Source: an uncultured Porphyromonadaceae bacterium
GTDB taxonomy: Bacteria > Bacteroidota > Bacteroidia > Bacteroidales > Muribaculaceae
Assembly (NCBI GenBank): GCA_946553045.1
Contig: CAMNRO010000005.1
Span: 1 to 64,000, forward strand
DNA: 64,000 nt
Direction: 5' to 3'
Below are positions 1 to 60,606 of this stretch, in pieces (position 1 is the first letter of the stretch; each line of letters begins with the position of its first letter). A model generated the notes under the pieces. The model was not told the DNA's origin and did not search any database. It saw nothing but the letters and a program-made list of their open reading frames with translations. The position numbers were made by a program, and so were the translations under genes.

Positions 1-65
1 CACCCACTAATCACTAACCACTAACCCCTCACCACTAACCCATAACCTCTCACCACTAACCCAGA
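1..65 (+). repeat. Intergenic short-unit array 1 (heptads, C-rich arm)
   Basis: Nine heptads of the CACTAAC type (CACTAAT, CACTAAC, CCATAAC, CTCTCAC and variants) run without a break to four bases before the start codon at 69. The window edge removes whatever lies upstream, so a G-rich partner arm of the kind seen at other arrays cannot be checked here. No Shine-Dalgarno sequence is present; the array occupies that position. Confidence 0.85.
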
Positions 66-68
66 ACA

Positions 69-776
69 ATGAAAACTGACTTTTTCAAAATAGCTGTTGT
101 GGCTGCCATGCTGTTCTCAGCCGTACAACTCTCCGCCCAGAACCGCGATTGGGCTCAGCATGGCCGCTACGCACAGGCAAACAAGGAGCTGCCCGCTCCC
201 GTCAAGGGCGAGCACCGTGTGGTGTTCATGGGTAATTCCATCACCGACCACTGGGCCGACATGCGCCCCGATTTCTTCAAGGCCAACAACTATGTCGGCC
301 GCGGAATCAGCGGACAGACTTCCTATCAGTTCCTGCTCCGTTTCCGCGAGGACGTAATCAATCTCAAGCCCGAGGTGGTGGTTATCAATGCCGGCACCAA
401 CGACTGCGCCGAAAATACACACGCCTTCAACCCCGAAATCACCCTCGGCAATGTCATGTCTATGGTTGAGCTCGCCAAAGCCAACGGAATAAAGGTGATA
501 ATCGCCTCTACGCTTCCCGCCACGACTTTCGGCTGGAATCCTGCAATCAAGGATGCCCCCGAGCGCGTGAAAACCATCAACAAACTCATAAAGGACTATG
601 CCGACGCCAACAAGATACCCTATGTGGACTACTACAGCGCTATGGTGGCCGGCCCCGACGGCACCATGAACCCCGCCTACAGCAACGACGGCGTGCACCC
701 CACCCACGCCGGCTACGAAGTGATGGAGCCCATCGTCAAAGCCGTCATCGACAAGACGCTCAAGCGCAAGAAATAA
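69..776 (+). CDS. Secreted SGNH/GDSL-family lipase/esterase
   Basis: A 235-residue protein with an N-terminal signal peptide (hydrophobic stretch near residues 8-22, ending LSAQ). It carries the SGNH blocks in order: block I GNSITD with the nucleophilic Ser near residue 57, block II around GISGQT, block III NAGTND, and block V DGVHPTHAGY with the Asp/His pair near residues 207 and 210. Family members hydrolyse acyl esters; in Bacteroidales they often deacetylate glycans, but the substrate cannot be read from sequence. The full catalytic set and usual length argue for an active periplasmic or secreted enzyme. It appears monocistronic, with a hairpin terminator directly after it. Confidence 0.9.
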   Translation: MKTDFFKIAVVAAMLFSAVQLSAQNRDWAQHGRYAQANKELPAPVKGEHRVVFMGNSITDHWADMRPDFFKANNYVGRGISGQTSYQFLLRFREDVINLKPEVVVINAGTNDCAENTHAFNPEITLGNVMSMVELAKANGIKVIIASTLPATTFGWNPAIKDAPERVKTINKLIKDYADANKIPYVDYYSAMVAGPDGTMNPAYSNDGVHPTHAGYEVMEPIVKAVIDKTLKRKK

Positions 777-797
777 ATTTCCTGCCGCATATACAGA

Positions 798-830
798 CAA
801 AGGCGCCCCGTGCTGAGCGAGGCGCCTTTG
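798..830 (+). terminator. Rho-independent-type hairpin after the SGNH esterase
   Basis: A 10-bp perfect stem (CAAAGGCGCC / GGCGCCTTTG) with a 13-nt loop lies 21 bases after the stop codon and ends in a short T-rich run. It separates the plus-strand esterase from the convergent lipoprotein gene and could serve both directions. Confidence 0.75.
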
Positions 831-848
831 TTGTATTCAGAGATTGGG

Positions 849-15410: not shown

Positions 15411-15530
15411 GTGAAGTTGTTAAAGAGTTTAAGGTCTTTGAGGAGTTTAAAAATTTGAAAGAGTCAGCTTAACCGCCCAGCAGCCCGTCAGCCTGTCAGC
15501 CTGATAGCCCATCAGCCCAACCGCCTAATC
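15411..15530 (-). repeat. Intergenic short-unit array 2 (rlmN stop to pdxA leader)
   Basis: Read on the minus strand, octads of the GGCTGAC/GGCGGTTG type begin inside the last codons of rlmN (GGC GAT TAG GCGG) and supply its TAG stop. They run through GGCTGATG, GGCTATCA, GGCTGACA, GGCTGACG and GGCTGCTG. They then change to 9-base units of the TTTAAACTCC/TCAAAGACC type that end about 20 bases before the pdxA ATG. The two arms are only weakly complementary at this locus. Confidence 0.85.
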
Positions 15531-16544
15531 GCCCGCCTTGGCTTTGCCGGCAAGCATGCCGCATGCGGCCATGATGTCTTCGCCGCGGCTTGCGCGTATG
15601 GTAGCGGTGATTCCGGCCGCGTTGAGGCGGTCGCGGAAAGCCTCCATGGTGGCGGTGTCGCTGGGGCGCCCTTCGAAGCCGGGTGTGCGGTGGAAGCGTA
15701 TCAGATTCACGCGGGCGTCAGAACCGCGCAGCAGGCGCGCCAGGGCGTCGGCGTGCTTGTCGTCGTCGTTGAGGCCGGCGAACATTGTGTATTCCATCGA
15801 CAGACGGCGCTGGTGGGCGAAGTCGTGGGCTTTGAGCAGCGGCATTATCTCGCGGAGAGGGAAAGCCTTCTCGACGGGCATTATGCGCTCGCGTTCGCCC
15901 GCGAATGGAGTGTGGACGCTCAGCGCTATGTGCACCTGGGTGCGGTCCAGGAGCGTGCGGAGCCCCTTGGTGTTGCCGATGGTCGATACGGTGATACGGC
16001 GCGGGCTCCATGCCATACCCCATTTCGCGGTGAGAATGTCGATGGCGCCGAGGACGGCCTCGAGATTGTCGGTCGGCTCGCCCATGCCCATGAAGACGAT
16101 GTTGGTGAGCTTGTCGCTGTCCGGTATTGAGAGAATCTGGTTGATTATGGCGCCTGTGTCGAGATTGCCCTGGAAACCGCCCTGGCCCGTCATGCAGAAC
16201 TTGCAGCCCATGCGGCAACCGGCCTGGCTCGACACGCATAGTGTGGCACGCTCGCGGTCGGGGATATATACTGCCTCGATGTCGCGTCCTCCGACGCCTT
16301 CGAAGAGGTATTTGGCTGTGCCGTCGGTGCTTCTGGCCTCCATCTTGGGTGCCTCGCGGCCTACGGTATATGTCTTTTTAAGCTCTTCGCGGGCTTTTTT
16401 GGGGAGGTCGGTCATGGAGTCGATGTCGGCCACTCTTTTCTGATAGAGCCATGCTGCCATCTGCTTGGCCGCGAAAGGTCTCAGCCCCACAGAGGCAGCC
16501 ACTTCGCCGAGTTGTTCGGGATTAAGCCCTAATAGTTTCTTCAT
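15525..16544 (-). CDS. rlmN: 23S rRNA (adenine-2503-C2)/tRNA methyltransferase
   Basis: 339 residues. A radical SAM enzyme that methylates A2503 of 23S rRNA and A37 of some tRNAs. The cluster motif CxxxCxxC is Cys110, Cys114, Cys117 (CRMGCKFCMTG), and the methyl-carrying C-terminal Cys is Cys328 (IMAACGML). GMGEPTDN and HTPFAGERERIMP are also conserved family blocks. Its start codon overlaps the gpsA stop by one base (TGATG), so the two are translationally coupled. The stop TAG and the Asp codon before it belong to the first unit of array 2. Confidence 0.95.
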   Translation of the reverse strand: MKKLLGLNPEQLGEVAASVGLRPFAAKQMAAWLYQKRVADIDSMTDLPKKAREELKKTYTVGREAPKMEARSTDGTAKYLFEGVGGRDIEAVYIPDRERATLCVSSQAGCRMGCKFCMTGQGGFQGNLDTGAIINQILSIPDSDKLTNIVFMGMGEPTDNLEAVLGAIDILTAKWGMAWSPRRITVSTIGNTKGLRTLLDRTQVHIALSVHTPFAGERERIMPVEKAFPLREIMPLLKAHDFAHQRRLSMEYTMFAGLNDDDKHADALARLLRGSDARVNLIRFHRTPGFEGRPSDTATMEAFRDRLNAAGITATIRASRGEDIMAACGMLAGKAKAGD

Positions 16545-32007: not shown

Positions 32008-32008
32008 T

Positions 32009-32117
32009 GTGGGCTGTTGGGCTGTTAGGCGGTTAGGTGGTTAGGAGGTTGGGAAATTAGGAGTTGGGAGTCAGTCGGAATCAACTTCCAACTACTAACT
32101 TCTAACTTGTAACTAAG
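32009..32117 (-). repeat. Intergenic short-unit array 3 (before nucleoside kinase)
   Basis: On the minus strand a weak G-rich arm starts 12 bases after the upstream glycosyltransferase stop (units GTTACAA, GTTAGAA, GTTAGTA, GTTGGAA). It is followed by a C-rich arm of octads (CCTCCTAA, CCACCTAA, CCGCCTAA, CAGCCCAA, CAGCCCA) that ends two bases before the kinase ATG. Confidence 0.85.
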
Positions 32118-32129
32118 GTCTATCCGATT

Positions 32130-33679: not shown

Positions 33680-34733
33680 ATATGGCCATTATTTCATTGT
33701 AAAAGCGGTCGTAGCCGAATCTGTTTTCGAATGTTTCTCTGGCAGCTTGGCCCATTTTTGCGCGCAGGCTGCTGTCGGCGGCCAGGAGGCGTATGGCGGC
33801 GGCAAGCGAATCGGGGTCGCCGGGGCGCACTAAAAGGCCGTCGGTGCCGTCGGTTATGATTTCTGTCGGGCCGCCGGCCTTGGAGGATATCGGAGGCACG
33901 CCCTGGCTCATGAACTCGAGCACGGCCAGACCGAACGATTCGGGCACCCTCGTGGGCAGCACGCCTATGTCTGCGGCCGAAACGGCTGTGTAGATGTCGT
34001 CGATATGTCCGGGCCACTCCACGCGGTCGTCAATGCCGAGCCTGCGGCATTTTTCCATCAGGGGCAGCACTGTCTTTGCCGTTCCGACGCCCCCGACGGT
34101 AAGCCGCACGGGCATATCGGTGAGTTTGGCCATGGCTTCGATGAGAATGTCGACGCCTTTTTCGGGCGATATGCGGCCTATGTAGAGCACATTCACCATG
34201 TCGGATGAGGGCTTGGTGGCAGGCTCCGGCGGCATTATTGAGTTGTGGACCACATGAAGCTTGGCCTCGTCGCAGCCCGGTCGGCCTGCGATAAATTCTT
34301 TCCGGGCAGCTTCCGACACGAAGATGATGTCGTCGAGCTGACGGTAGAGGTCGCGCTCCATGCTGCTGTTTTTTGCGGACTTCACGAGGTGACGGGTCAC
34401 TACTACGCGCACTTTCCCGGGCTCTTTCATGAGACGGCGGGCGCGCACGGCCGTGTAAGCATCCTTGAAATTATGCGCGTGCAGCACTATGGGTGCGTCC
34501 ATGCGGTTGAGCACTCGGGCCAGGGTCATTGGGCTTAGAAAGTCGATGGCGCCGCGCAGAGGCAGATGGCCGGGCGTGAATCCGGCGGCTTCGAAAGGCT
34601 TGTCGACGGCTTCGCAGCGGCGCGTGACAACGGCCACGCTGTGCCCTTCGGCCGTGCACCGGCGGCAGAGGTCGAGCACATATCGCTCGCCCCCTCCCCA
34701 TGCTTTGTTCGATACCAGATGGACGATGTTCAT
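33651..34733 (-). CDS. Glycosyltransferase family 4
   Basis: 360 residues, GT-B fold. N-terminal NKAWGGGERYVLDLCRR, mid-protein NVLYIGRISPEKGVDILIEA, and the nucleotide-sugar-binding block PESFGLAVLEFMSQGVPPISSKAGGPTEI near 265-295 with the E-x7-E arrangement. Such enzymes add hexoses to LPS core or other surface glycans. Array 4 fills the space to the preceding glycosyltransferase and ends four bases before this ATG. Confidence 0.9.
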   Translation of the reverse strand: MNIVHLVSNKAWGGGERYVLDLCRRCTAEGHSVAVVTRRCEAVDKPFEAAGFTPGHLPLRGAIDFLSPMTLARVLNRMDAPIVLHAHNFKDAYTAVRARRLMKEPGKVRVVVTRHLVKSAKNSSMERDLYRQLDDIIFVSEAARKEFIAGRPGCDEAKLHVVHNSIMPPEPATKPSSDMVNVLYIGRISPEKGVDILIEAMAKLTDMPVRLTVGGVGTAKTVLPLMEKCRRLGIDDRVEWPGHIDDIYTAVSAADIGVLPTRVPESFGLAVLEFMSQGVPPISSKAGGPTEIITDGTDGLLVRPGDPDSLAAAIRLLAADSSLRAKMGQAARETFENRFGYDRFYNEIMAIYEGAHRHKQ

Positions 34734-34734
34734 T

Positions 34735-34950
34735 CTTTTAGGAAGTTGGGAGATTGGGAGATTGGGAGGTTAGGAGATTAGGAAGTTGGGAGATTGGGAG
34801 GTTAGGAGGTTAGGAGATTAGGAAGTTGGGAGGTTAAGAGGTTAGGGAGGATAGGAGATTATGCGGTTGGGAATTCGAATGGATTCCTAATTTCATAATC
34901 TCATACTTTCATAACCTCTTAACCTCCCAACTTCCTAATCTCCTAATTCA
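34735..34950 (-). repeat. Intergenic short-unit array 4 (octads, two complementary arms)
   Basis: On the plus strand thirteen consecutive octads run from 34738 to 34841 (TTAGGAAG, TTGGGAGA, TTGGGAGG, TTAGGAGA, TTAGGAGG, TTAAGAGG) and continue less regularly to about 34873. After a short AT-rich centre the strand switches to the complement (TAACCTCT, TAACCTCC, CAACTTCC, TAATCTCC) until 34947. In gene direction the G-rich arm starts at the TGA of the upstream glycosyltransferase (TGA ATTAGGAGA) and the C-rich arm ends four bases before the GT4 ATG. Confidence 0.95.
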
Positions 34951-35697
34951 GTTTTTAAGGAGTTTGCGCGAGGTGCGGTAGGCGTGCATGGTGGCTATGA
35001 AGCGGGTTTTGGCAATGTCGTTGCCTGTGGCGCCGTCGAGAATGGCGCCGTCGCGCAGATGGCATTTCAGGAAGGCGCATGCGGCGCGTAGCCAGCGGAA
35101 GGGTGCCGGAGCGTCGATGCCTGCTGCCGCCATGAGGCGTCCGCGTAGTTCGGCATGGCGCAGTTCCTTGAAGTGCAGCTCGCCGATTTCGGTGCAGCGG
35201 AAGTGCAGCATGTCGCCCTGCAGCAGCTGCGGGCTTATGCTTCCGGCATATGTCAGGCGTTCGCCTACGTCGAGAAGGTCCCACGAGGCATAGCGCTTGT
35301 CGAAAAGGCGTGTCTCGACAGAGGGGTGCATGCCGCTGTGCGCTACCGGACGGCCGCAGACATAGCTCACCACCCGGAAGCAGTACATGCGGTGGCGGAA
35401 TCCTTCGGCCTTAAGGGCTATTATGCTGCGGCGAAGTTCGTCGGAAAGCACTTCGTCGGCATCGATGGAAAGCACATAGGGAGCGCTCGCCAGACCGGCG
35501 GCATACTGTCGCTGCGAGCCATAGCCGGCAAAATCGCGCTCGGTGACCTTGCAGCCGTAGCGGCGGCAGATTTCGGCCGTATTGTCGGTCGAGTGCGAAT
35601 CGACCACCACGATTTCGTCGGCAACGCCGATGAGCGAGTTGAGGCAGCGTTCGATGTTGCGCTCCTCGTTGCGTGTAATGATTGTCGCTGATAGCAT
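34948..35697 (-). CDS. Glycosyltransferase family 2
   Basis: 249 residues, GT-A fold. LSATIITRNEERNIERCLNSL, then DEIVVVDSHSTDNTAEI and the DxD-type SIDADEVLSDELRR near residues 78-92. Relative of the other GT2 in this cluster (WaaE/KdtX-like) but shorter and with a different C-terminus (LRAACAFLKCHLRDGAILDGATGND). Likely adds a core sugar; specificity unknown. It is enclosed by arrays 4 and 5, so both its leader and its 3' flank are repeat DNA. Confidence 0.86.
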   Translation of the reverse strand: MLSATIITRNEERNIERCLNSLIGVADEIVVVDSHSTDNTAEICRRYGCKVTERDFAGYGSQRQYAAGLASAPYVLSIDADEVLSDELRRSIIALKAEGFRHRMYCFRVVSYVCGRPVAHSGMHPSVETRLFDKRYASWDLLDVGERLTYAGSISPQLLQGDMLHFRCTEIGELHFKELRHAELRGRLMAAAGIDAPAPFRWLRAACAFLKCHLRDGAILDGATGNDIAKTRFIATMHAYRTSRKLLKN

Positions 35698-35823
35698 TGC
35701 AGTTGGGCGGTTAGGCAGTTAGGCTGACAAGCTGACGGGCTGTTGTGCTGACGGGCTCATTAGCTTGTCAGCCTGTCAGCCCGTCAGCTTAAATGCCTAA
35801 CAGCCTATCGGCTTATTAGCTTA
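35698..35823 (-). repeat. Intergenic short-unit array 5 (GGCTGAC octads, complementary arms)
   Basis: In gene direction it starts at the TAA of the upstream dehydrogenase (TAAGCTAATAAGCC), runs as octads GATAGGCT, GTTAGGCA, GACGGGCT, GACAGGCT, then changes to the complement (GCCCGTCA, GCCCGTCA, GCTTGTCA, GCCTAACT, GCCTAACC) and ends at CAACTGCA directly before the ATG. No non-repeat sequence is left between the two genes. Confidence 0.93.
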
Positions 35824-37017
35824 AAGTTCGAGGTCGCCGTCCACTACTTCGTGCCAGGGCAGACCGTTTTCGGCGAGGGCGGCCAGGAAGGGATCCGGGT
35901 CGAATTCCTCGACGTTGCGCACGCCCTTGAGATTCCATTTTCCAGTGAGGAACATCATGGCGCCGACCATGGCAGGAACGCCTGTGGTGTAGCTCACGGC
36001 CTGCATGCCAGTTTCCTTGTAGGCGGCTTCGTGCGAGCAGTTGTTGTAGATGTAGTATGTCATCGGCTTGCCTTCCTTGCTCTTGCCCGAAATGCGGCAG
36101 CCGATGGAGGTTTCGCCGTGATAGTTCTCGCCGAGGTCCTGCGGATTAGGCAGCACAGCCTTGAGGAACTGCAGAGGCACGATTTTGGTGCCGTTGTATT
36201 CCACTTCGTCGATGCGTGCCATGCCGATGTTCTGAATCACACGGAGGTGTGTGAGGTATTCCTGTCCGAATGTCATCCAGAAGCGGGCGCGCTTGATGGT
36301 GGGGAAGTTCTGCACGAGGCTCTCGAGCTCTTCGTGGTAGAGCAGATAGCTCTCGCGCGGGCCGATGTTGGGATAGCTGAGGGTCTTGTGGAACTCGAGG
36401 GGCTTGGTTACCACCCACTTGCCTTCTTCCCAGTAGCGTCCGTTCTGAGTGATTTCGCGAATGTTGATTTCGGGGTTGAAGTTGGTGGCGAAAGCCTTGC
36501 CGTGGTCGCCGGCGTTGCAGTCTACGATGTCGAGGGTCTCCATTTCGCTGAACCAGTGCTTGGCCGCATAGGCTGTGAAAACGCCGCTCACACCGGGGTC
36601 GAAACCGCAGCCGAGGATAGCGGTGAGGCCGGCCTGCTCGAAGCGCTCGCGGTAGGCCCACTGCCAGGAATACTCGAAGTGAGCAACGTCCTTGGGCTCG
36701 TAGTTGGCTGTGTCGAGGTAGTTTACTCCGCACTGCAGGCATGCCTCCATGATGGTGAGGTCCTGATATGGCAGAGCCACGTTGATTACCAGTTCGGGTT
36801 TGTGGCGCTCGAGCAGAGCCACAATCTGGTCTACATGGTCGGCATCGACGCTGTCGGTGCTGACATTGGGCTTGCCGATAGCCTTTGCAACGGCGTCGCA
36901 TTTCGAGCGGGTACGCGAGGCGATGACGATTTCAGAGAAAACCTCGGGATGCTGCGCGCACTTGTGGGCCACAACCGTGCCCACGCCTCCGCAGCCGATG
37001 ATAACAACTTTTGCCAT
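35821..37017 (-). CDS. Carboxynorspermidine/carboxyspermidine dehydrogenase (saccharopine dehydrogenase family)
   Basis: 398 residues. Rossmann motif VVIIGCGGVGTVVAHK at the N-terminus, CGFDPGVSGVFTAYA, DCNAGDHGKAFATNFNPE and the C-terminal YNNCSHEAAYKETGMQAVSYTTG, which are typical of the bacterial CASDH group. It condenses aspartate semialdehyde with a diamine (putrescine or diaminopropane) and reduces the product, the alternative polyamine route found in Bacteroides. The partner decarboxylase (NspC) is not in the window. It follows the flippase-like gene by 23 bases. Confidence 0.85.
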   Translation of the reverse strand: MAKVVIIGCGGVGTVVAHKCAQHPEVFSEIVIASRTRSKCDAVAKAIGKPNVSTDSVDADHVDQIVALLERHKPELVINVALPYQDLTIMEACLQCGVNYLDTANYEPKDVAHFEYSWQWAYRERFEQAGLTAILGCGFDPGVSGVFTAYAAKHWFSEMETLDIVDCNAGDHGKAFATNFNPEINIREITQNGRYWEEGKWVVTKPLEFHKTLSYPNIGPRESYLLYHEELESLVQNFPTIKRARFWMTFGQEYLTHLRVIQNIGMARIDEVEYNGTKIVPLQFLKAVLPNPQDLGENYHGETSIGCRISGKSKEGKPMTYYIYNNCSHEAAYKETGMQAVSYTTGVPAMVGAMMFLTGKWNLKGVRNVEEFDPDPFLAALAENGLPWHEVVDGDLEL

Positions 37018-37040
37018 ATTCGTTTAAAATATCTGTTTTT

Positions 37041-38054
37041 TTATGATTTGATTCTCTTTTTGTCGAGGGCGATGGCTATGAATGTGAAAATGCCAAGCCC
37101 GATGATGAGGAGGGTGTTTGCGCCGAGCACAAGGTTGGCAAAGGCGCTGCCTTCCATCGTGCCGAGGCCGTAGATGCTCAGACCGAAGATTGTGGCCCAC
37201 TGCCAGGGACCTATGCCGCCGTTGGAGGGCACGCCCATCGATATCGACGAGAGAACCCATGTGACCAGTGCGGCCTGCACGCCGTGTTGCTCCACGATTT
37301 CGGTCGTGAAGGGAAAGGCGTAGAAGGCCAGGTAGTTCTGAAGGAAATAGCAGCCCCAGAGAGCCACTGTCAGAAGCAGCCAGCGTCCTTTGTGGGGCAT
37401 TTTGACGATTACGGCGAAGCCCTGCCACAGTTCGCGGACAGCCGTCTGTATCTTGACAATCCTGGGGTTGTCGGTCTTGCGCGCCATGAAAATCCACACG
37501 GCGGCTATCGCGGCCACTGACGCGCCCCACAGCCACGGCGACTCAAGCAGGCGCGCTATCGCGGCAAGGCTCTCGCCGTTCTGGTGCAGATAGCTCAGAA
37601 TGGCCTTCGACGAAATCAGAAAAGCGCTCAGGGCAAGCAGCAGCACAGTGAGCGTGTCGGCCAGGCGGTCGGCGACCATAGAGCCGAAGACAGTCGTGAA
37701 AGGCGCCTGCTGACGCTGCGATATGTAGCCCGTGCGCCATACCTCGCCAAGGCGCGGGAAGACGAGGTTTACGGCATAGGTGCCGAATATACTGTATATC
37801 AGGGCATGTGCCGGGGCGTTGATTCCGAGGGCCTTGAGCTGTATGCCCCAGCGGAATGCCCTTATGATGTGCGAGAACACGGCCAGTACGAGGCCTGCGG
37901 CTATCCAGCGGAAGTCGCATTGGGTGCGGATGATGTGAATCATCTCCTTGAAGTCGATTCCGGTGAACAGCAGGTAGCACAGACCTATGCTGATTATCAG
38001 CGGAATTATATATTTCATCAGCTGCCCGAAACGGGAACTTTTCTTTTTCTCCAT
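37041..38054 (-). CDS. Flippase-like membrane protein (UPF0104 / LPG synthase transmembrane region)
   Basis: 337 residues with about eight membrane segments. The N-terminal QLMKYIIPLIISIGLCYLLF, then the conserved RAFRWGIQLKALG, FPRLGEVWRTGYISQ and the C-terminal SSISMGVPSNGGIGPWQWATI identify the YbhN/UPF0104 family, related to the transmembrane part of lysylphosphatidylglycerol synthases. No aminoacyl-transferase domain is present. Probable lipid translocation or membrane lipid transport; substrate unknown. First gene of the cluster, with a TACATTTG box 57 bases upstream. Confidence 0.8.
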   Translation of the reverse strand: MEKKKSSRFGQLMKYIIPLIISIGLCYLLFTGIDFKEMIHIIRTQCDFRWIAAGLVLAVFSHIIRAFRWGIQLKALGINAPAHALIYSIFGTYAVNLVFPRLGEVWRTGYISQRQQAPFTTVFGSMVADRLADTLTVLLLALSAFLISSKAILSYLHQNGESLAAIARLLESPWLWGASVAAIAAVWIFMARKTDNPRIVKIQTAVRELWQGFAVIVKMPHKGRWLLLTVALWGCYFLQNYLAFYAFPFTTEIVEQHGVQAALVTWVLSSISMGVPSNGGIGPWQWATIFGLSIYGLGTMEGSAFANLVLGANTLLIIGLGIFTFIAIALDKKRIKS

Positions 38055-43824: not shown

Positions 43825-43833
43825 TACTGGACT

Positions 43834-43853
43834 AAATTCCGCGAGCGGAATTT
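43834..43853 (-). repeat. Short palindrome at the hflX side of array 6
   Basis: AAATTCCGC / GCGGAATTT with a 2-nt centre, 9 bases upstream of the hflX ATG; it would place a hairpin close to the ribosome-binding region. Confidence 0.75.
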
Positions 43854-43946
43854 AAGGTTAGGGGTTAGAGGTTAGTGGTTAAAGGTTAGTGTTTAATGTG
43901 GGGGCGTGTCATTGACCTCTAACCACTAACCATTAACCACTAACCC
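43852..43946 (-). repeat. Intergenic short-unit array 6 (TTAGTGG heptads, complementary arms)
   Basis: On the plus strand the units TTAGGGG, TTAGAGG, TTAGTGG, TTAAAGG, TTAGTGT, TTAATGT occupy 43858-43899. After a GC-rich centre the complement follows (CTCTAAC, CACTAAC, CATTAAC, CACTAAC). In hflX direction the G-rich arm comes first and the C-rich arm lies nearest the start codon. Units are 7 bases, unlike the 8 of arrays 4 and 5. Confidence 0.93.
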
Positions 43947-43971
43947 TGTGGTTTTCAATTTGAAAACCACA
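43947..43971 (-). repeat. Palindrome at the ligase side of array 6
   Basis: TGTGGTTTTCAA / TTGAAAACCACA, a 12-bp perfect stem around one base, 8 bases after the acyl-CoA ligase stop. It may be that gene's terminator, though it lacks a U tract. Confidence 0.8.
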
Positions 43972-43977
43972 CTTTAA

Positions 43978-45792
43978 TCAGCAATACATCGCCTCGATGG
44001 CGTCGGCATAGGCCGAGTTGATGACCGGGCGGCGTATCTTGAGTGTATTGGTGAGCTCTCCGGCCTCGATGGTGAATTCGCGGGGGAGGAGAGTGAATTT
44101 CTTAATCTTTTCGAAGCCGGCGAGACCTTTCTGAAGCTTCTCGATGCGCTCGGCGATGAAGCGGCGTATCTCGCTGTTGTTCACGAGGTCGTCGATTGAG
44201 CTGTAGCTGATGCCCTTCTGTCCGGCGTACTCCTTGAGGGCTTCGAAGGCAGGCACGATGAAGGCTGTGACATACTTGCGCTGGTCGCCGATGACGGCCA
44301 CCTGCTCTATGTAGCGGTCCTCGCCGAGGCGGCTTTCGATGGCCTGCGGGGCTATGTATTTGCCGTTGGAGGTCTTGAAGAGGTCTTTGAGGCGCTCGGT
44401 GAGTATGAGCGAGCCGTTTTCGTCGAAGCGGCCGGCGTCGCCCGTGCGGAACCAGCCGTCGGGGGTAAACACGGAGTTGTCCGTGTCCGGTCGGCCGAAA
44501 TAGCCGCGCATCACAGTCGGGCCTTTCACGAGAATTTCGTTGTTCTCGCCTATTTTCACCTGAACGTCGGAGAGGGTAGTGCCGACGGTTCCGAATTCAT
44601 AGCCTACGGTAGGATAGCACGACACAGTCGCCGTGGTCTCCGACAGACCGTAGCCGATGATGATATTGATTCCGCAGGCGTGCATGAACTCCACGATGGC
44701 GCTCGACAGCGGTGCGCCTGCCGTAGGGAAGAATCGGCCGTTCTCAAGGCCTATGGCTGCGCGCAGTTTAGAAAATACGAGCTTGTTGTAGAGCTGATAG
44801 CGCTGTTCGAGAAGCCAGGGAGCCTTGCGGCCCATGCGCACGTATTCGAGATTGCGCTTGGCGCCGGCGGCAAGAGCGCGCTCGAACATTATTTTGGTAA
44901 AGCCGCGTGTGGAGCTGATTTTCTCCTGCACGGCTGAATATACCTTCTCCCAGAAGCGGGGAACGCTGCACATGCATGTGGGCTTTGCCACCTTCACGGC
45001 GGTCTGTATCTCCTTGGGGTTGGGGTTGATGTCTACGCGTATGCCCATGGTGAGGCAGAAGTATGTCCAGGCCTTTTCGAATATGTGGCTCAGGGGGAGG
45101 AAGCATACGGAGGTGTCGGCATCCGAGAGGGTGTCGAGGCGCGCGCGGTGCATGTCGATGGCGGCATCGAAGCAGCTGTGCGGCAGAATGGCGCCCTTTG
45201 GCTCGCCGGTGGTGCCCGAGGTGTAGATGAGAGTGGCTATGTCGTCGGGGTTGGCGGCGGCTGTGCGGAGGGCGACTTCGGCCCGGCAGTCGGCTGAGGC
45301 GGCCGCACCCAGGGCGAGGAAGTCCTTGAAAAGCATCGATGTCGTGTCGCCGGATTCGAAGACGATGTCGTCGCCGAATGCTACGATATGCTTCATCGAC
45401 GGGCATTCCGCCGCAATCTTGCGGGCTATATCATAATGCGCCTGTGTGCCGGCGAAAATGGCCTGTGCGCTGGCGTCGTTGACTATGTATTTCACCTGGT
45501 CGGCGCTGCTGGTGGCATAAATCGACACGGGAACCGCGCGGTTGCGGTAGCAGGCGAAGTCGGTGACCAGTATCTCGCTGCAGTTGGGCGCAAGAATGGC
45601 TATATTGTCCTGAGGCTTGATTCCGAGCATCTCGAGGGCGCAGGCGGCATGCTCCACGCGGTCGGCAAGTTCGCCCCATGAGCACGGGCGCAAGGTTCGC
45701 GCCGCGGTGTCGATGGTGGTGAATGCCACCCGCTCGCGGCCATAACGCCCTGTCTGCTGCTCGATTATGTGTGTGAGAATATTGGGCATCAA
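43978..45792 (-). CDS. Long-chain fatty-acid-CoA ligase (AMP-forming)
   Basis: 604 residues (or 603 from the next ATG). ANL superfamily: the AMP/ATP loop TLIYTSGTTGEPKGAIL near residues 190-206, GYGLSETTATVSCYPTVG, the GDAGRFDENGSLILTERLKDLFKTSNGKYIAPQ hinge region and the C-terminal lysine region. Activates fatty acids to acyl-CoA for phospholipid synthesis or degradation. No neighbour explains it. A TACCTTTG box is 25 bases upstream. Confidence 0.92.
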   Translation of the reverse strand: MMPNILTHIIEQQTGRYGRERVAFTTIDTAARTLRPCSWGELADRVEHAACALEMLGIKPQDNIAILAPNCSEILVTDFACYRNRAVPVSIYATSSADQVKYIVNDASAQAIFAGTQAHYDIARKIAAECPSMKHIVAFGDDIVFESGDTTSMLFKDFLALGAAASADCRAEVALRTAAANPDDIATLIYTSGTTGEPKGAILPHSCFDAAIDMHRARLDTLSDADTSVCFLPLSHIFEKAWTYFCLTMGIRVDINPNPKEIQTAVKVAKPTCMCSVPRFWEKVYSAVQEKISSTRGFTKIMFERALAAGAKRNLEYVRMGRKAPWLLEQRYQLYNKLVFSKLRAAIGLENGRFFPTAGAPLSSAIVEFMHACGINIIIGYGLSETTATVSCYPTVGYEFGTVGTTLSDVQVKIGENNEILVKGPTVMRGYFGRPDTDNSVFTPDGWFRTGDAGRFDENGSLILTERLKDLFKTSNGKYIAPQAIESRLGEDRYIEQVAVIGDQRKYVTAFIVPAFEALKEYAGQKGISYSSIDDLVNNSEIRRFIAERIEKLQKGLAGFEKIKKFTLLPREFTIEAGELTNTLKIRRPVINSAYADAIEAMYC

Positions 45793-45979: not shown

Positions 45980-46002
45980 TAAAACCGCTGGTTCCGGTTT
46001 GG

Positions 46003-46160
46003 GTTAGAGGTTAGAGGTTAGTGGTTAGTGGTTAGTGGTTAGTGGTCGCACTACTCCCCCAACTTCCTAATCGCCTAACAGCTTAACCGCCCAACTGCCC
46101 AACCGCCTGTCAGCTTAACAGCCCAATAGCCCAATAGCCTAACTTCCTAATTTCCTAAAC
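46003..46160 (+). repeat. Intergenic short-unit array 10 in the DUF4491 leader
   Basis: G-rich heptads first (TTAGAGG, TTAGAGG, TTAGTGG repeated four times; 46004-46048), then C-rich octads (AACTTCCT, AATCGCCT, AACAGCTT, AACCGCCC, AACTGCCC, AACCGCCT, AACAGCCC, AATAGCCC, AATAGCCT, AACTTCCT, AATTTCCT), ending AAACA next to ATG. The two arms differ in unit length and pair only partly. Confidence 0.95.
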
Positions 46161-49570: not shown

Positions 49571-49686
49571 AACATTAAAGTCCTCAAAGTCTTCAAGGTT
49601 CTTAAAGTCCTTAAAGTCTTTAAAGACCCTAACCTCCTACCTTCCTAATCTCCTAATTTCCCAACCTCCTAATCTCCTATTCTCCT
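49571..49686 (-). repeat. Intergenic short-unit array 7 (3' end of mscS-type gene)
   Basis: On the minus strand octads AGGAGAAT, AGGAGATT, AGGAGGTT, GGGAAATT, AGGAGATT, AGGAAGGT, AGGAGGTT start inside the last codons of the channel gene (AGG AGA ATA GGA GAT TAG) and supply its stop. They then change to 9-base units (ACTTTAAGG, ACTTTAAGA, ACCTTGAAG, ACTTTGAGG). Here the neighbour is convergent secDF, so the second arm faces no start codon. Confidence 0.92.
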
Positions 49687-50850
49687 GATATCGTTGCCGG
49701 CCGGAGTCTGGAACATGCGCAGGCCGAACTCGGCCACGATAGCATATATATGGTCGAAAATATCGCTCTGGATATTCTCGAACGCCTCCCATTCGACGGT
49801 CTTGGTGAAGAAATACAGCTCGAGAGGCAGCCCGGAAGGTGTGGGGTCAAGCTGGCGCACCATCTCGGTCATAGAGTGGTTTATGGCGGGGTGATTCTTT
49901 ATATAATGGTCGAGATAGCGGCGCAGCAGATGGAGATTTACCGTGTGTGCGGCGTCGGCTATGTCGAGGCCCTCGAGCCAGCCGCGTTCCGAAAGCGTGC
50001 GGAGCTCCTCGGGCGTGCAGAAACGAACCGTATTGACGTCGATATATATAGGACGCTCCACGCGTCGGCCGCCCGATTCGCGCATTGCCTGATAGTTGCG
50101 GAACGAGTCGGTCACAAGAGAGTAGGGCGGTATGGTGCTGATGGAATTATCCCAGTTTCTCACTTTTACGGTCGTGAGGGTGATTTCGAGCACTTCGCCG
50201 TTGGCTCCGTGGCGTTCGGCTACAATCCAGTCGCCGATATGGAGCATCTTATTGACCGTGAGCTGTACGGAGGCTACAAAGCCCAGTATCGTGTCCTTGA
50301 ACACCAGCATCATCACACCGGCTGTGGCGCCCAAGGCGGTCAGGATAGCCAGCGGACCTCGTCCGAAGAGTATGCTGCAGCATATTAGCACGCCTATGCA
50401 GATGGCTATCACCTTTATGGTCTGGAATAGTCCCCGCACGGCCCATATCTTGTATCGGGGCCTTTTTTTGACGGCTTCATACAGGTTGTCGGCAAATATC
50501 ATGATGATATAGATATATGTGCCGAGAATGTATAGCGCGGTGACTACTCCGAGCCAGTGGATTCCGTCGTCGCCTCCGCTGAAAAATCCCGGCAGGAGCC
50601 AGTTGACAATCAGTGCCGGCACGAGCTGGGCTATGGCGTTGAGCATTTTGTTGTTGAGCAGGTCGTCGTCCCATTTGGTGCGGCTTATGTGCTCGATGTA
50701 GTGCTCGATATAGGGTATTACAAATTTGGCCAGCTTGAACGATATATAGGCCGCCAGGGCTATCCCGATGAGGATTATGGCCGTGATGATGTTTGGGGCG
50801 TAGGAGGTGCCGATATTTTCGGCAAGGAAGGTCTTGATGGTCTCGAACAT
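49669..50850 (-). CDS. Mechanosensitive ion channel of the MscS family
   Basis: 393 residues. Four to five membrane helices (residues 15-150), the pore helix region GPLAILTALGATAGVMMLVFKDTILGFVAS near 170-200 with Gly/Ala packing, then the MscS beta domain (GDWIVAERHGANGEVLEITLTTVKVRNWDNSISTIP) and a cytoplasmic alpha/beta domain. YbdG-like in length. Relieves hypo-osmotic pressure. The C-terminal RRIGD and the stop codon are made of array 7 units. It lies downstream of fabF, separated by array 8. Confidence 0.9.
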   Translation of the reverse strand: MFETIKTFLAENIGTSYAPNIITAIILIGIALAAYISFKLAKFVIPYIEHYIEHISRTKWDDDLLNNKMLNAIAQLVPALIVNWLLPGFFSGGDDGIHWLGVVTALYILGTYIYIIMIFADNLYEAVKKRPRYKIWAVRGLFQTIKVIAICIGVLICCSILFGRGPLAILTALGATAGVMMLVFKDTILGFVASVQLTVNKMLHIGDWIVAERHGANGEVLEITLTTVKVRNWDNSISTIPPYSLVTDSFRNYQAMRESGGRRVERPIYIDVNTVRFCTPEELRTLSERGWLEGLDIADAAHTVNLHLLRRYLDHYIKNHPAINHSMTEMVRQLDPTPSGLPLELYFFTKTVEWEAFENIQSDIFDHIYAIVAEFGLRMFQTPAGNDIRRIGD

Positions 50851-50851: not shown

Positions 50852-51043
50852 TGTAAGGAGGAAGTAAGAGGAAGGAATAAGGAATAAGTAATAAGTAATA
50901 AGGAATAGGTAATAAGGGATAGGGGGGGGCGGAGATGCGGAAAGGGATAAGCAATAAGGCTTAGTGGCCGGAGCCAAATCCTTATTACTTATCCCTTATT
51001 GCTTATTACTTTAAGAAGTACTTATTACTTGAAGAAGTGCTTA
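50852..51043 (-). repeat. Intergenic short-unit array 8 (TAATAAG heptads, complementary arms)
   Basis: In gene direction it begins with the fabF stop (AAATAAGCACTT), continues AAGTAATAAG, AATAAGC, AATAAGG, GATAAGT, AATAAGG, then after a GC-rich centre changes to the complement (CTTATTG, CTTATCC, CTTATTA, CCTATTC, CTTATTA, CTTATTA, CTTATTC), ending 3 bases before the channel ATG. A run of eight G on the plus strand (50922-50929) lies within it. Confidence 0.93.
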
Positions 51044-52312
51044 TTTCTCGAATTTCTTCACGATGACGGTAGCGTTGTGGCCGCCGAAACCGAAAGAGTT
51101 CGACAGTGCTGCGCGCACTGTGCGCTTCTGAGCGCGGTCGAAGGTGAAGTTGAGGGTATAGTCGATTTCCTCGTCCTTGTCTTCGGGGTCGTGGTTGATT
51201 GTCGGGGGCACGATGTCTTCTTCTACGGCCTTGATGCTGAATACGGCTTCGAGGGCGCCGGTAGCGCCGAGGAGGTGTCCGGTCATCGATTTTGTAGAAG
51301 AGATGTTGAGCTTGTGGGCTGCGTCGCCGAACAGTTCCACGATAGCCTTGACCTCGGAGATGTCGCCGACGGGAGTCGACGTGCCGTGCACGTTGATATA
51401 GTCGATATCTTCGGGCTTCATGCCGGCGTCCTCGAGGGCGTTGCTCATGGCGAGCTTGGCGCCGAGGCCTTCGGGGTGAGTGGCGGTGAGGTGGTAAGCG
51501 TCGGCCGACATGCCGCCGCCGGCTACCTCGCAGTAGATTTTAGCACCGCGTGCGAGTGCGTGTTCGAGTTCTTCGAGCACGAGCACTGCCGAGCCTTCGC
51601 CCATCACAAAGCCGTCGCGGCTTTTGCTGAAGGGACGCGAGGCGGTCTGGGGGCTGTCGTTGCGGGTCGAGAGGGCGTGCATGGAGTTGAAGCCGCCTAC
51701 GCCTGCAGGGAAGATGGCTGCTTCAGCGCCGCCGGTGATCATGACGTCGGCTTTGCCCAGACGGATAAGGTTGAATGCGTCGATAATGGCATTGTTGCTC
51801 GAGGCGCAGGCCGAAACGACACCGTAGTTGGGGCCATGGTAGCCATATTCCATCGAGATGTGGCCGCTTGCGATGTCGGCAATCATCTTGGGAATGAAGA
51901 AGGGGTTGTATTTGGGCCCCTTGTCGGCGTTCATGGCATAATATCCTGCTTCTTCCTCGAAGGTGTGGAGACCTCCGATGCCGGCTGCTACAATCACGCC
52001 TACGCGGTTTTTGTCGACGTTGTTGCCTTCTTCGGCATCGATGCCGGAGTCGGCCACGGCCTGACGGGCTGCCACAAGCGCATACTGTGCGTAGAGGTCG
52101 AGCTGGCGCGCCTTGCGGCGGTCGAAATGATCCTCGGCTTTGAAACCTTTGACTTCGCAGGCAAACTGGGTTTTGAACAGGCTGGCGTCGAAATGGGTGA
52201 TGGGGCCGGCACCGCTCACGCCTGCTTTGGCGTTCTCCCAGGTAGTGGCAACATCGTTGCCAAGCGGGGTGATAGCTCCAAGGCCGGTAACTACGACTCT
52301 TTTAAGTTCCAT
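51041..52312 (-). CDS. fabF: Beta-ketoacyl-ACP synthase II
   Basis: 423 residues. Elongates acyl-ACP with malonyl-ACP in fatty acid synthesis. Thiolase fold with the catalytic Cys in VVSACASSNNAI near residue 169, His in NVHGTSTPVGD near 310 and His in SMTGHLLGATGALEAV near 345. It follows acpP by 124 bases in the usual acpP-fabF order. Its TAA stop is the first TAAG of array 8. Confidence 0.96.
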   Translation of the reverse strand: MELKRVVVTGLGAITPLGNDVATTWENAKAGVSGAGPITHFDASLFKTQFACEVKGFKAEDHFDRRKARQLDLYAQYALVAARQAVADSGIDAEEGNNVDKNRVGVIVAAGIGGLHTFEEEAGYYAMNADKGPKYNPFFIPKMIADIASGHISMEYGYHGPNYGVVSACASSNNAIIDAFNLIRLGKADVMITGGAEAAIFPAGVGGFNSMHALSTRNDSPQTASRPFSKSRDGFVMGEGSAVLVLEELEHALARGAKIYCEVAGGGMSADAYHLTATHPEGLGAKLAMSNALEDAGMKPEDIDYINVHGTSTPVGDISEVKAIVELFGDAAHKLNISSTKSMTGHLLGATGALEAVFSIKAVEEDIVPPTINHDPEDKDEEIDYTLNFTFDRAQKRTVRAALSNSFGFGGHNATVIVKKFEK

Positions 52313-57974: not shown

Positions 57975-58095
57975 AGGATAAAGTCCGTGTGAATTCGTTC
58001 TTTTACTGACAATCAAACGACCAGGACACGCCATATGTTCACCACGCCCGCCAACTTCAGACTTCCTGCTTGCACCACCCGGCTGCCATCTGGTT

Positions 58096-58126
58096 TTGCG
58101 GTCAACAAAAAAATGATTAATTTTGT
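58096..58126 (+). promoter_or_regulatory. Promoter of the S41 protease gene
   Basis: TTTG (58096-58099), a 19-bp spacer and TAATTTTG (58119-58126). It lies 50 bases before the ATG at 58177. Confidence 0.75.
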
Positions 58127-58176
58127 TTTTTAATTGATTGCGCGCCCGTGTGGGCGTCGCTCCGCGTTCAACCGTT

Positions 58177-59844
58177 ATGAAGAAACTATTATATATCATG
58201 GCCGTAGCCGCCGCGTTTGCCGGCGTTTCGGCTCTGGCCGCGACCCCGGCTGCAGCCCGCAAGGACGATTTCGCCCGCAAGCTGCGCACATTCAATGCCA
58301 TAGTCAAGGAGCTGCAGGCAAACTATGTCGACACGCTCGACGCCAACGATATCATGGACAAGACCATCGGCGCCTTGCTCTATCAGATAGACCCCTATAC
58401 CGAATATTACCCCGCCGGCGACCAGGACGAGCTCCTGTCGATTTCGCAGGGCCAGTATGCCGGCATTGGCTCCACCATCGTCAAGCGTGGAGCCGAGGTG
58501 CTTGTCAGCGAGCCCCAGTGGGAGTCGCCCGCCCGCCGCACCGGCCTGCGCCCCGGCGACGTCATCATTGCCGTCGACGGCGATACGGTGCGCTCTTCGA
58601 TGCAGATAGGCGACGTGAGCCGTCGTCTGCGAGGCCAGGCGGGCACCAATGTGCATGTAGACGTGCGCCGCCCCTATGTGCAGGACTCGATTCTGTCGTT
58701 CGACATCACCCGCGCCGACATCAAGGTGAATCCGCTGCCATATTATGGCATCGATAAGGACGGCACCGGATTTATCCGCCTGACGACATTCAACGAGAGC
58801 AGCGCCCGTCGTGTGAAAGAAGCCGTGGCCGACATGCTCCGCAACCCCGCTCTGAAAGGCATTGTGCTCGACCTCCGCGGCAATGGCGGCGGTCTCCTCG
58901 AGAGCGCCGTGCAGATTGTGGGCAACTTCGTGCCCAAAGGCACAGAGGTGGTCCGCACCCGTGGCCGCGACCGTCGCTCCGAGAAGGTCTATAAGACCAC
59001 CCGCCAGCCACTCGACGCCAATATTCCCCTCGTAGTCCTTACCGACGACGGCACCGCGTCGGCCTCGGAAATCGTGGCCGGCTCGCTGCAGGACCTCGAC
59101 CGCGCCGTTGTCGTCGGCCAGCGCTCATTCGGCAAAGGCCTTGTGCAGACCACGCGTCCGCTGCCCTTCGACGACATCATGAAGCTTACTACGGGCCGAT
59201 ATTATATCCCCTCGGGCCGTCTTATCCAGGCGCTCGACTATTCGCACCGCAACCCCGACGGTACGCCTGCCCGCACCCCCGACAGTCTTACCACCGAGTT
59301 CAAGACCCGTGCCGGCCGCAGTGTGCGCGACGGCGGCGGCATTACCCCCGACGTGACAGTCGAGACCAAGGAGATGAACCGCCTCATATACAATATCATC
59401 GCCGATATGTGGGCTTTCGACTATGCCAACCGCTACTATGCCGCCCACCCCGACGCCGTGCCTGTTGGCGACTTCGAGATTACCGACAGCATATTCGACG
59501 ATTTCAAGGCCTTCATCGATCCCGCCCGCTTCAAATATGACCGTCAGTGCGAGTCGGCGCTCGACTATCTGCGCACCGCGGCCAAAAACGAGGGATACAT
59601 GACCGATTCGGTCGCAGCACAGTTCGATGTTCTGTCGGCCATGCTCAAGCACGACCTCGACCACGACCTCAATATCAACCGCGAGGATATCACCGACATT
59701 CTCCGCGACGAAATAGCGGGCCGCTACTACAGCGACGGCGACCGTGTGCTTCTCACCCTTCCCGGCGACAGCGCATATATCCGCGCCGCGGCAATCATCG
59801 CCGACCCCGCCGAATACAAACGACTCCTTTCTCCGGCAAAATGA
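58177..59844 (+). CDS. C-terminal processing peptidase, family S41
   Basis: 555 residues with a signal peptide (MKKLLYIMAVAAAFAGVSALA). N-terminal helical part, a PDZ domain (residues about 90-170, GIGSTIVKRGAEVLVSEPQ, RTGLRPGDVIIAVDG), then the S41 core with the Ser in TASASE (residues 293-298) and the Lys in RSFGKGLVQ (Lys320). Cuts C-terminal tails of periplasmic proteins. The C-terminal 150 residues form an extra domain usual in Bacteroidetes. The next gene starts on its stop (ATGA). Confidence 0.93.
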   Translation: MKKLLYIMAVAAAFAGVSALAATPAAARKDDFARKLRTFNAIVKELQANYVDTLDANDIMDKTIGALLYQIDPYTEYYPAGDQDELLSISQGQYAGIGSTIVKRGAEVLVSEPQWESPARRTGLRPGDVIIAVDGDTVRSSMQIGDVSRRLRGQAGTNVHVDVRRPYVQDSILSFDITRADIKVNPLPYYGIDKDGTGFIRLTTFNESSARRVKEAVADMLRNPALKGIVLDLRGNGGGLLESAVQIVGNFVPKGTEVVRTRGRDRRSEKVYKTTRQPLDANIPLVVLTDDGTASASEIVAGSLQDLDRAVVVGQRSFGKGLVQTTRPLPFDDIMKLTTGRYYIPSGRLIQALDYSHRNPDGTPARTPDSLTTEFKTRAGRSVRDGGGITPDVTVETKEMNRLIYNIIADMWAFDYANRYYAAHPDAVPVGDFEITDSIFDDFKAFIDPARFKYDRQCESALDYLRTAAKNEGYMTDSVAAQFDVLSAMLKHDLDHDLNINREDITDILRDEIAGRYYSDGDRVLLTLPGDSAYIRAAAIIADPAEYKRLLSPAK

Positions 59845-60482
59845 AAGACCTCCGTGCCGTGCGCGGAGCCTCCCTGATACACTCGCTCATCGCTCAGGGC
59901 GAGCATGAGCATCAGGACTTCAAATTCGCCATTTCCGACGCACGCAAGATAGCGCGCTCCATCTCTGCCTTCGCCAACAACGACGGAGGCCGCCTCCTTA
60001 TTGGCGTGAAAGACAACGGCGTCGTTGCCGGCGTGCGCAACGAAGAGGACATATATGTTGTCGAACAGGCTGCCGAGCGCTACTGCCGTCCGGCCGTGTC
60101 GGTAGAGTTTAAAGGCTATAAGGTCGACGGCACGCTGCTCGTCATAGTGGCCGAAATAGAGGCATGTCCCTCCCGCCCCGTCATGGCATCGGAGCCCGAC
60201 GGCTCATGGCGTGCCTACTATCGTGTCGCCGATGAGAATATCGCCGCACACCCTCTCATGGTCGAAGCCTGGCGCCGCAGTTCGCGTCCTGTCGCGTTCG
60301 AGGAGCTCCATGGCGCTGTCGCAGCCTTTGTCGGCGGTGCCGGTGGTCCTGTCGAAGTGCGCGACATAGCCCTCGGCCTCCACATCAGCACGCCTCGCGC
60401 CGAAAGTGCCGTCGCCGACCTCGCTGCCGCCGGCCTTCTCCGTTTCGTCTACCACCGCGGCGAATTCAGAATAGCGGATTAG
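59841..60482 (+). CDS. AlbA_2 (Schlafen-type) domain protein
   Basis: 213 residues, start ATGA overlapping the protease stop. The N-terminal half is an AlbA_2 domain: GEHEHQDFKFAISDARKIARSISAFANNDGGRLLIGVKDNG near residues 19-60, then VIVAEIEACPSRPVM. Often annotated as ATP-binding, though the domain is better known from nucleic-acid-binding or RNase-type proteins. The C-terminal half looks like a winged helix (VRDIALGLHISTPRAESAVADLAAAGLL). The last codons and stop (ATA GCG GAT TAG) are array 9 units. Confidence 0.78.
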   Translation: MKDLRAVRGASLIHSLIAQGEHEHQDFKFAISDARKIARSISAFANNDGGRLLIGVKDNGVVAGVRNEEDIYVVEQAAERYCRPAVSVEFKGYKVDGTLLVIVAEIEACPSRPVMASEPDGSWRAYYRVADENIAAHPLMVEAWRRSSRPVAFEELHGAVAAFVGGAGGPVEVRDIALGLHISTPRAESAVADLAAAGLLRFVYHRGEFRIAD

Positions 60483-60606
60483 GAGGTTAGGAGGTTAGGA
60501 GGGTAGGAAGTTAAGAAATTAGGAAGTTAGGAGATTAGGAGGTTGGGAGGTCGGTTTAAAAAAAACTTAAGCACCTTAAAGACCCTAAATTCCCTAAACC
60601 CGCAGC
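60470..60606 (+). repeat. Intergenic short-unit array 9 (TTAGGAGG octads)
   Basis: The stop TAG at 60480-60482 lies in the first TTAGGAGG. Nine octads follow (TTAGGAGG three times, GTAGGAAG, TTAAGAAA, TTAGGAAG, TTAGGAGA, TTAGGAGG, TTGGGAGG), to about 60550. The C-rich part is short (CTTAAGCACC, TTAAAGACCC, TAAATTCCC, TAAACCCGC) and ends about 85 bases before the next ATG. Confidence 0.93.

Follow-up and report, generated by a model that had tools for sequence, protein, structure and literature searches.

Intergenic arrays of 7- to 9-bp repeats with a constant strand polarity in an uncultured Muribaculaceae bacterium

Introduction

Cyanobacteria carry short tandemly repeated repetitive sequences, degenerate 7-mers that fall into few classes. 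Comparable heptamers, the GGGAATC and GGGGA(T/C)T repeats, have been described in Xanthomonas and Nostoc by Rehm et al. (2015, PMC4692102); in the sections of that paper drawn on here they are dispersed, mostly intergenic, imperfect and variable in copy number, favour four units, and place their G-rich sequence on the coding strand just after stop codons and on the non-coding strand just before start codons, with 70 and 75 convergent pairs in two Xanthomonas genomes and few in Nostoc. The same sections suggest G-quadruplex (G4) formation, leave function open, and cite the view that heptamers reflect the length of DNA contacted by a polymerase. The TAACTGA repeats (MacGregor 2015, PMC4679880) are, in the parts of that account used here, intergenic heptamers by start codons with a patchy distribution among Beggiatoaceae, Cyanobacteria and some Bacteroidetes (five of the latter), and heptamers related to them are rarely or never arrayed. 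Here we analyse the window, the whole stretch of 64,000 nucleotides (C5:1-64000) that opens contig C5 (CAMNRO010000005.1) of a 2.93-Mb, 85-contig genome of an uncultured Muribaculaceae bacterium, in which a first-pass annotation had reported intergenic arrays of 7-, 8- or 9-bp units at ten places.

These arrays may be to Bacteroidales what the G-rich heptamer repeats are to Xanthomonas and Nostoc, and the statement in the annotation that no described element class has such properties is contradicted by PMC4692102, which reports such heptamers. Dispersed, mostly intergenic and imperfect repeats of variable copy number are common to both systems, as are a G-rich strand directed away from the adjoining gene, convergent pairs, overlapped stop codons and scarcity between divergent genes; according to the same sections the heptamers are absent from plasmids, and here the low-GC contigs C3 and C11 lack convincing arrays. 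Unlike the heptamers as there described, the arrays of this genome comprise units of 7, 8 and 9 bp in seven families, some without G runs, and combine arms of differing unit length at one gap; and whereas 83% of the Xanthomonas repeats are given as common to two species, the array gaps here exceed those of congeners. The TAACTGA repeats, as far as the parts of PMC4679880 used here extend, differ in having one fixed unit arranged as direct repeats, with one indirect repeat in the BOGUAY genome. The P6b stem of the Nostoc trnL intron, in the portions of PMC4476775 considered, is built of degenerate 7-mer repeats whose class has been replaced at the same site, which is paralleled here at the 35698 gap between the window genome and the congener G045; in contrast to P6b, a single site in a structured intron RNA, the gaps studied here are ordinary intergenic ones with no sign of selection for RNA structure. 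Within the open-licence PubMed Central (PMC) literature, searches for such arrays in Bacteroidetes, Bacteroidales or Bacteroides gave only the accounts of Rehm and MacGregor as relevant, and no relevant account was found there of the individual repeat strings, of the 7-9 range, multiple families, units lacking G runs or mixed arms, or of gain and whole-element copying. New here, then, are the coexistence of units of 7, 8 and 9 bp from several families in a single genome, the units without G runs and the mixed arms that keep their polarity, together with the gain over three congeners and two pairs of whole-element copies.

Results

All ten places of the window hold period-7, -8 or -9 arrays, as annotated, and shuffled sequences give none. 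The survey was extended to 864 kb of the genome, comprising set 1 (the window plus 400 kb, 464 kb) and set 2 (a further 400 kb, kept as a hold-out). With a single score cut-off, the intergenic DNA (412 pieces with 20-bp padding each, 184 kb) contains 47, 33 and 8 segments at periods 7, 8 and 9, against 0, 0, 1, 1, 0, 2 and 0 at periods 4, 5, 6, 10, 11, 12 and 13 (four in all) and none at periods 7, 8 or 9 in any of the three shuffles, which kept either the dinucleotides or the base composition. Arrays are not equally frequent in coding DNA, where 633 kb, after trimming of gene ends by 40 bp, gave 0, 2 and 2 segments at the same periods, four as opposed to the 88 between genes. The arrays are therefore real, not a product of chance, and mostly intergenic. 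At an array cut-off score of 15 in the window genome (16 in relatives), 64 clusters lie outside genes, 51 in set 1 and 13 in set 2, and those inside called genes, three and one respectively, were excluded. By contig, C5 carries 18 over 84 kb, C4 21 over 140 kb, C2 8 over 100 kb and C1 4 over 140 kb, and C7, C8 and C9 carry 3-4 per 60 kb; C3 has two doubtful ones, left out of the shared-stretch, mismatch, placement, arm and centre analyses (62 of 64 retained), and no array was found in the portions of C6, C10 and C11 read. Contigs C3 and C11 (L193-L196, L211-L212) are low in G+C, with little predicted coding sequence and a poor fit to the core codon model. A scan of the whole window against Rfam returned nothing at gathering scores, and CRISPR arrays, which need repeats of at least 20 bp with unique spacers, were rejected as a candidate, the units here being 7-9 bp and head to tail.

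The central observation concerns strand polarity. The annotation had placed a G-rich arm first and a C-rich arm last, an order found at eight of the nine two-armed places of the window, the left arm at 49571-49686 departing from it with G 7 and C 9. Scored by segment and with a margin, all 31 clear two-armed clusters of the sample (25 in set 1, 6 in set 2) read G-then-C and none C-then-G, the other 33 of the 64 clusters, one-armed or with a low G-C difference, showing one sign only and being omitted from the count. A second scoring rule gave 37 G-then-C and one C-then-G, the latter an array merged with coding DNA; by segment sign alone, the 37 two-segment loci divide into 33 G-then-C, three with C-rich sign in both segments, one undecided and no C-then-G, and the 13 mixed-period loci into 10, 2, 1 and 0. 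The order is thus constant in the sampled part of the genome, and it is the same in every gene context (32 tandem, 3 convergent and 2 divergent loci with two clear arms). Neither of the outcomes that the annotation had named as refuting it, an arm order without preference or equal occurrence inside coding regions, was seen, and its descriptive part holds. The G-richer strand of the arms has a median of 1.7% C and 31% G (101 arms). An array that reads G-then-C on one strand does so on the other as well; the order therefore carries no information on gene direction or mRNA, and the annotation's reading of it as set relative to genes rather than to the plus strand, and as pointing to transcription or mRNA, does not follow. 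The rule can be stated without reference to a strand, namely that, in either arm, the strand poor in C is oriented 5' to 3' away from the gene border and into the gap. Only 19 of 31 single-armed arrays (15/24 in set 1, 4/7 in set 2) lie nearer the border this rule predicts, and they therefore lend it no clear support. Elsewhere, all 17 two-armed arrays found in G050, the genome behind locus L076 whose title names an isolate (Isolate-013), read G-then-C, as counted by a script that scored this order only, over 16 fetched stretches picked by repeat pattern, two of which gave no array call; four other G050 arrays are single-armed by inspection. The 63 arrays found in other genomes include 12 G-then-C and 2 C-then-G, a count that omits L051 and L131-L152 and takes three of its 12 from L076, also part of G050; one of the two C-then-G cases, L099, looks like coding sequence.

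Behind this single architecture stand several unit families, seven as counted in the window genome, so that the annotation was right in holding that units differ by locus and are not copies of one sequence. The units, which include TTAGGAGG, GGTTAGT, GGCTGACG and AATTAAT, do not conform to the GGGNATC unit of Rehm et al.; families are common within one genome and different between genomes, and 7-mers of the GGTTAG and AATTA types also occur in other Bacteroidales. That the arrays are G4 elements, as Rehm et al. proposed for GGGAATC, would agree with the repeated G runs of the TTAGGAGG, GGTTAGT and GGGACTTGT arms and with a position rule that is the same in the sections of PMC4692102 used here; arms of AATTAAT, AATTATG, AAGTAAT and AGTTAGA, however, have no regular G runs and yet the same architecture, and we regard this proposal as very unlikely. 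Unit length is the same in both arms at 24 of the 37 two-segment loci and differs at 13; unequal lengths occur in the window at 46003 (7 bp left, 8 bp right), 49571 (9 and 8), 60470 (8 and 9), 15411 (9 and 8) and 32009 (8 and 7), whose arms are therefore not simple inverted copies. Nested arrays at C4 38345-38538 and C5 80458-80638 have a 9-mer array centred between 8-mer arms.

Array loci are distributed over 46 tandem, 12 convergent and 2 divergent gaps, the gene pairs as a whole (n=532) over 424, 55 and 53. Convergent gaps are enriched (12/60 versus 55/532, p=0.02) and divergent ones depleted (2/60 versus 53 of the 333 gaps of at least 60 bp, p=0.0016). Divergent gaps, where promoters lie, are thus avoided by the arrays, as coding DNA is. 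Distances to genes are approximate because gene calls come from our own codon-score script, trained on the window genome and retrained for G050, which missed the small gene at 46162. At 44 of the 61 gene 3' ends that face an array within 150 bp, the array starts between -35 and +5 bp from the stop codon, and at 25 the stop lies wholly or partly inside it, one of these being the array merged with coding DNA. The claim that arrays fill whole gaps holds in part, since 22 of the 46 tandem gaps of the sample are covered to at least 80% (median 79%) and at 43852, 46003, 49571 and 60470 in the window 31-212 bp of non-array sequence remain on at least one side; nor does the C-rich arm always adjoin a start codon, the nearest being about 86 bp away at 60470 and convergent gaps having none. 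Two runs of CAGCCCGT/CAGCCCAA units, at 63814-63881 and 63954-63983 of the window, lie in coding DNA that specifies a proline- and glutamine-rich stretch; arrays may therefore enter genes where the protein tolerates them.

Rho-type exit of transcripts at C-rich, G-poor arms is an existing idea that bears on this distribution. If the arrays were bidirectional exit sites, through which a transcript running either way leaves in such an arm and antisense or read-through transcription is stopped, a polarity identical on both strands would be explained; every clearly scored two-armed array does end, on both strands, in an arm with more C than G, and the enrichment of convergent gaps fits as well. 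On the other hand, there are AT-rich arms poor in C (C2 41699, C4 109716), most arrays lie between co-directional genes, and we judge this explanation unlikely.

A direct test is available for the proposal that the arms pair in intercistronic RNA as functional mRNA hairpins controlling the stability or translation of the neighbouring genes. Selection on hairpins should favour G-U over A-C mismatches on the transcribed strand, and the two should be equal by symmetry without selection or strand-biased mutation. Over 28 tandem loci, the arm mismatches on that strand are 20 G-U and 50 A-C (p=0.0004); by locus, A-C prevails over G-U at 12 against 2 with 7 ties in set 1 and at 3 against 0 with 4 ties in set 2, and convergent loci, where the strand is arbitrary, give 5 G-U and 8 A-C. 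The predicted fold of the sense RNA is weaker than that of its complement at 17/21, 6/7 and, in G050, 8/9 loci, 31/37 in all. Given the A-C excess and the weaker sense folds, hairpin selection is therefore not seen; mild selection against structure, or strand-biased mutation, would give an A-C excess. Although arms of equal unit length prevail, predicted folds can be strong (-80 kcal/mol at 34738, sense strand) and most array loci lie between co-directional genes, the tandem context is not enriched over gene pairs at large, arms of unequal unit length are not rare and the same operons of relatives run without these arrays, all of which makes a function as mRNA hairpins improbable.

The operon at 30346-38054 and other segments of the genome are syntenic in the congeneric genomes G045, G010 and G007. 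Ten syntenic array gaps measure 70-214 bp in the window genome, and 27 of the 30 values of the relatives are 2-67 bp; the window-genome gap is the longest of all in nine of the ten and longer than that of G010 in all ten. The exception, C5 70561, has 70 bp versus 92, 29 and 77 bp in the relatives, two of which show terminator-like hairpins by eye. Array-free junctions are within 25 bp of every relative compared in 10 of 14 cases, and one of the four outlying ones (C5 69722) proved on reading to hold a weak array. At the 35698 gap, G010 and G007 have no array and G045 has 7-mer AAGTCAA units where the window genome has 8-mer GGCTGACG; at C4 106126 and C5 70561 the stop codon stands at about its ancestral position and yet is part of the array, and at C5 76455 the reading frame continues into the array. 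In the relatives, arrays number one in 64 kb (G010), one in 57 kb (G007) and two in 50 kb (G045), four in 171 kb together, against the 64 in 864 kb of the window genome. The compared array gaps are thus longer than those of congeners with the same operons. Among named records, the HflX protein of the window is closest (90%) to that of an uncultured 'Porphyromonadaceae' bin (L051), whose genome, G049, has coordinates identical to those in G045; Muribaculaceae and other Bacteroidales records reach 83% and less. An assembly artefact of the metagenome bin might be suspected from the window starting inside an array at a contig end; the same architecture at 17 loci of the isolate-titled genome, the different units in other records and the location of array gaps inside conserved operons leave this explanation scarcely credible.

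Two pairs of arrays resemble each other over their whole length. The arrays at C8:25038-25121 and C8:25516-25603 are 89% identical over 99 bp, with arms and centre in common and unlike flanks, and flank the RNase P RNA gene (RF00010, L204:5134-5511 = C8:25134-25511); in L076, the arrays at 3123 and 3874 have the same centre, are 87% identical over 111 bp and flank one predicted open reading frame. Each pair would go back either to one array having been copied across to the second gap or to conversion by which two existing arrays became alike. Exact common stretches of at least 28 bp between loci number six, against a mean of 1.4 and a maximum of three in 12 unit-order shuffles of 62 loci. The window genome has a single pair of loci with a common centre; apart from the C8 and L076 pairs, centres differ, and one sequence with a core shared at many loci, as expected of repetitive extragenic palindromic (REP) or miniature inverted-repeat transposable elements (MITEs), was not found beyond these two flanking pairs, one per genome. 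Fold-back copying was rejected as a general source of the second arm, the own partner being the best match for 4 of 46 left arms and among the top three for 13.

Mobile hairpins moved by a dedicated enzyme could also account for the whole-element copies that flank a single gene in each of two species. The enzyme would be a TnpA-REP/Y1 transposase or else a reverse transcriptase using a short template, and the window genome does have matches to both families, one to Y1_Tnp and two to RVT_1. In a survey of 49 genomes of the genus, many of them incomplete, neither family proved a usable correlate: RVT_1 (two matches in the window genome, none in array-rich G047, which is 81% complete, and three in G007) does not track array load, and Y1_Tnp has two matches in G047, four in array-poor G045 and none in G010, array load having been sampled in few genomes only. 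These counts, together with centres that differ outside the two pairs, render a dedicated enzyme unlikely. SbcD was likewise discarded as a correlate, having no match in the window genome and being present in G047, and so was Ku, which matched nothing in the 49 genomes. A separate observation concerns G004 and G015 (L131, L134), two species 95.6% identical over one 4.2-kb stretch, which carry TTAGGGGG repeats, at several places paired a few hundred bases apart; these loci have no period-7, -8 or -9 array, were left out of the counts and represent some other repeat element.

Within the window, where arm bounds were set by the analyst, the individual arrays are as follows. The first consists of a C-rich arm (1..65, 7-mer CCACTAA) before the gene at 69 (+), its left part being lost at the contig end. 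The second pairs a 9-mer arm of the TTTAAGGTC type (15411..15468, G 16 and C 3) with an 8-mer CAGCCCGT arm (15475..15533) that overlaps the stop of the RlmN-like gene 15525-16544 (-). At the third, the left 8-mer arm (32010..32062) shifts from GGCTGTTG to GGAGGTTG along the array and the right arm (32079..32114) is of the 7-mer AACTTCT type, in a gap of 122 bp versus 7-20 bp in three congeneric species. The gap of 214 bp versus 2-20 bp in relatives holds 8-mer arms of TTAGGAGG (34738..34872) and CCTCCTAA (34885..34947), the outer four units of the latter mirroring, in order, four units of the former; next come the 8-mer arms GGCTGACG (35699..35760) and CGTCAGCC (35762..35823), where the array of G045 is of the AAGTCAA/TTGACTT type. 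Between hflX and an acyl-CoA ligase gene, in a gap of 153 bp versus 10-14 bp in relatives, 7-mer arms GGTTAGT (43856..43899) and ACCACTA (43915..43945) are bracketed, within 43825-43978, by two short palindromes, AAATTCCGCTCGCGGAATTT and GTGGTTTTCAATTTGAAAACCAC. The divergent gap that follows combines a 7-mer GGTTAGT arm (46002..46046) with an 8-mer CCCAACTG/CCTAACAG arm (46058..46158), which ends 3 bp before the ATG (46162) of a small open reading frame conserved in G045. In the convergent gap after secDF, the 9-mer TTAAAGTCC arm that is not G-rich (49575..49625) faces an 8-mer CCTAATCT arm (49628..49686) that includes the stop of gene 49669-50850 (-). The last two arrays have, respectively, 7-mer arms AAGGAAT/AAGTAAT (50855..50921) and CTTATTA (50981..51045), the latter followed by a 19-bp repeat, and an 8-mer TTAGGAGG arm (60477..60551), holding the stop of the gene that ends at 60482 (+), with a 9-mer CTTAAAGAC arm (60566..60606) before the next start at 60692.

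Discussion

The explanation that we favour, and to which we give about even chances, is that the repeats, as lineage-specific intergenic elements, are copied from array to array, lengthen by slippage, take the place of spacers and are tolerated. An array would enter a gap as a copy from another array, as the two whole arm-centre-arm cases suggest, and would replace the spacer up to the neighbouring codons; each arm would then grow and diversify by slippage of 7-9 bp, the C-poor strand being the one lengthened at its 3' end in either arm, much as though a gap had been opened, its two 3' ends elongated and the ends then rejoined. Selection would only prune, arrays persisting where genes and promoters are unharmed, and any potential mRNA hairpin would if anything be weakened. 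We infer that slipping C-poor synthesis at both 3' ends of an opened site accounts most simply for the polarity together with the restriction to 7-9 bp.

Several results weigh against this explanation or against the evidence adduced for it. The arms show no growth gradient, outer and inner halves being equally regular (87 arms, p=0.25), and inward growth is therefore not supported; common stretches of 20-26 bp stay within the range of the 12 unit-order shuffles; and exact arm mirrors, which fold-back copying would produce, are rare, the one at 34735 being an exception. Ku is the usual end-joining factor, and it had no match in any of the 49 genomes searched. Reverse polarity is real at L170 6121-6224 (GCACAAT units), which passes the scoring rule, and by eye L171 7795-7998 and L052 6731-6824 also have the C-richer arm first, the units of these three arrays being GCACAAT and CATAATT. 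The mismatch excess is not significant in the hold-out alone (A-C 8 versus G-U 4, p=0.39) or in G050 (A-C 18 versus G-U 13). Density is very uneven, 51 clusters in 464 kb of set 1 versus 13 in 400 kb of set 2, two of them doubtful, the latter density being no higher than that of G045. Finally, the comparison is one across species and not between strain pairs, the matched DNA of the relatives being mostly 65-86% identical, and although their spacers are hardly recognisable beside the arrays (judged by eye, unaligned), drift could also hide them.

Beyond copying, slippage and tolerance in one lineage, there might be a general bacterial process by which, once an intergenic site is opened, each of its 3' ends receives C-poor repeats of 7-9 nt, in the manner of telomere addition, before the two are rejoined. 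Acting throughout Bacteroidales, and perhaps in Xanthomonas and Nostoc too, it would generate converging arrays with families that are common to a genome and exchanged from one species to the next; we put this forward as a speculative extension that is doubtful as it stands.

Conclusions

Heptamer intergenic repeats have so far been noted in scattered bacteria, their origin and role unexplained. The present genus offers a contrast, namely an array-rich, multi-family species beside congeners that have the same operons without arrays, and thereby separates what is constant (units of 7-9 bp, the C-poor strand running inward, placement from stop to start) from what is variable, the unit sequence itself. 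Accounts based on quadruplexes and on mRNA hairpins are weakened, and strain collections would allow the origin of the arrays to be tested. Should array gain prove to follow breaks, an undescribed way of filling bacterial DNA ends would come to light.

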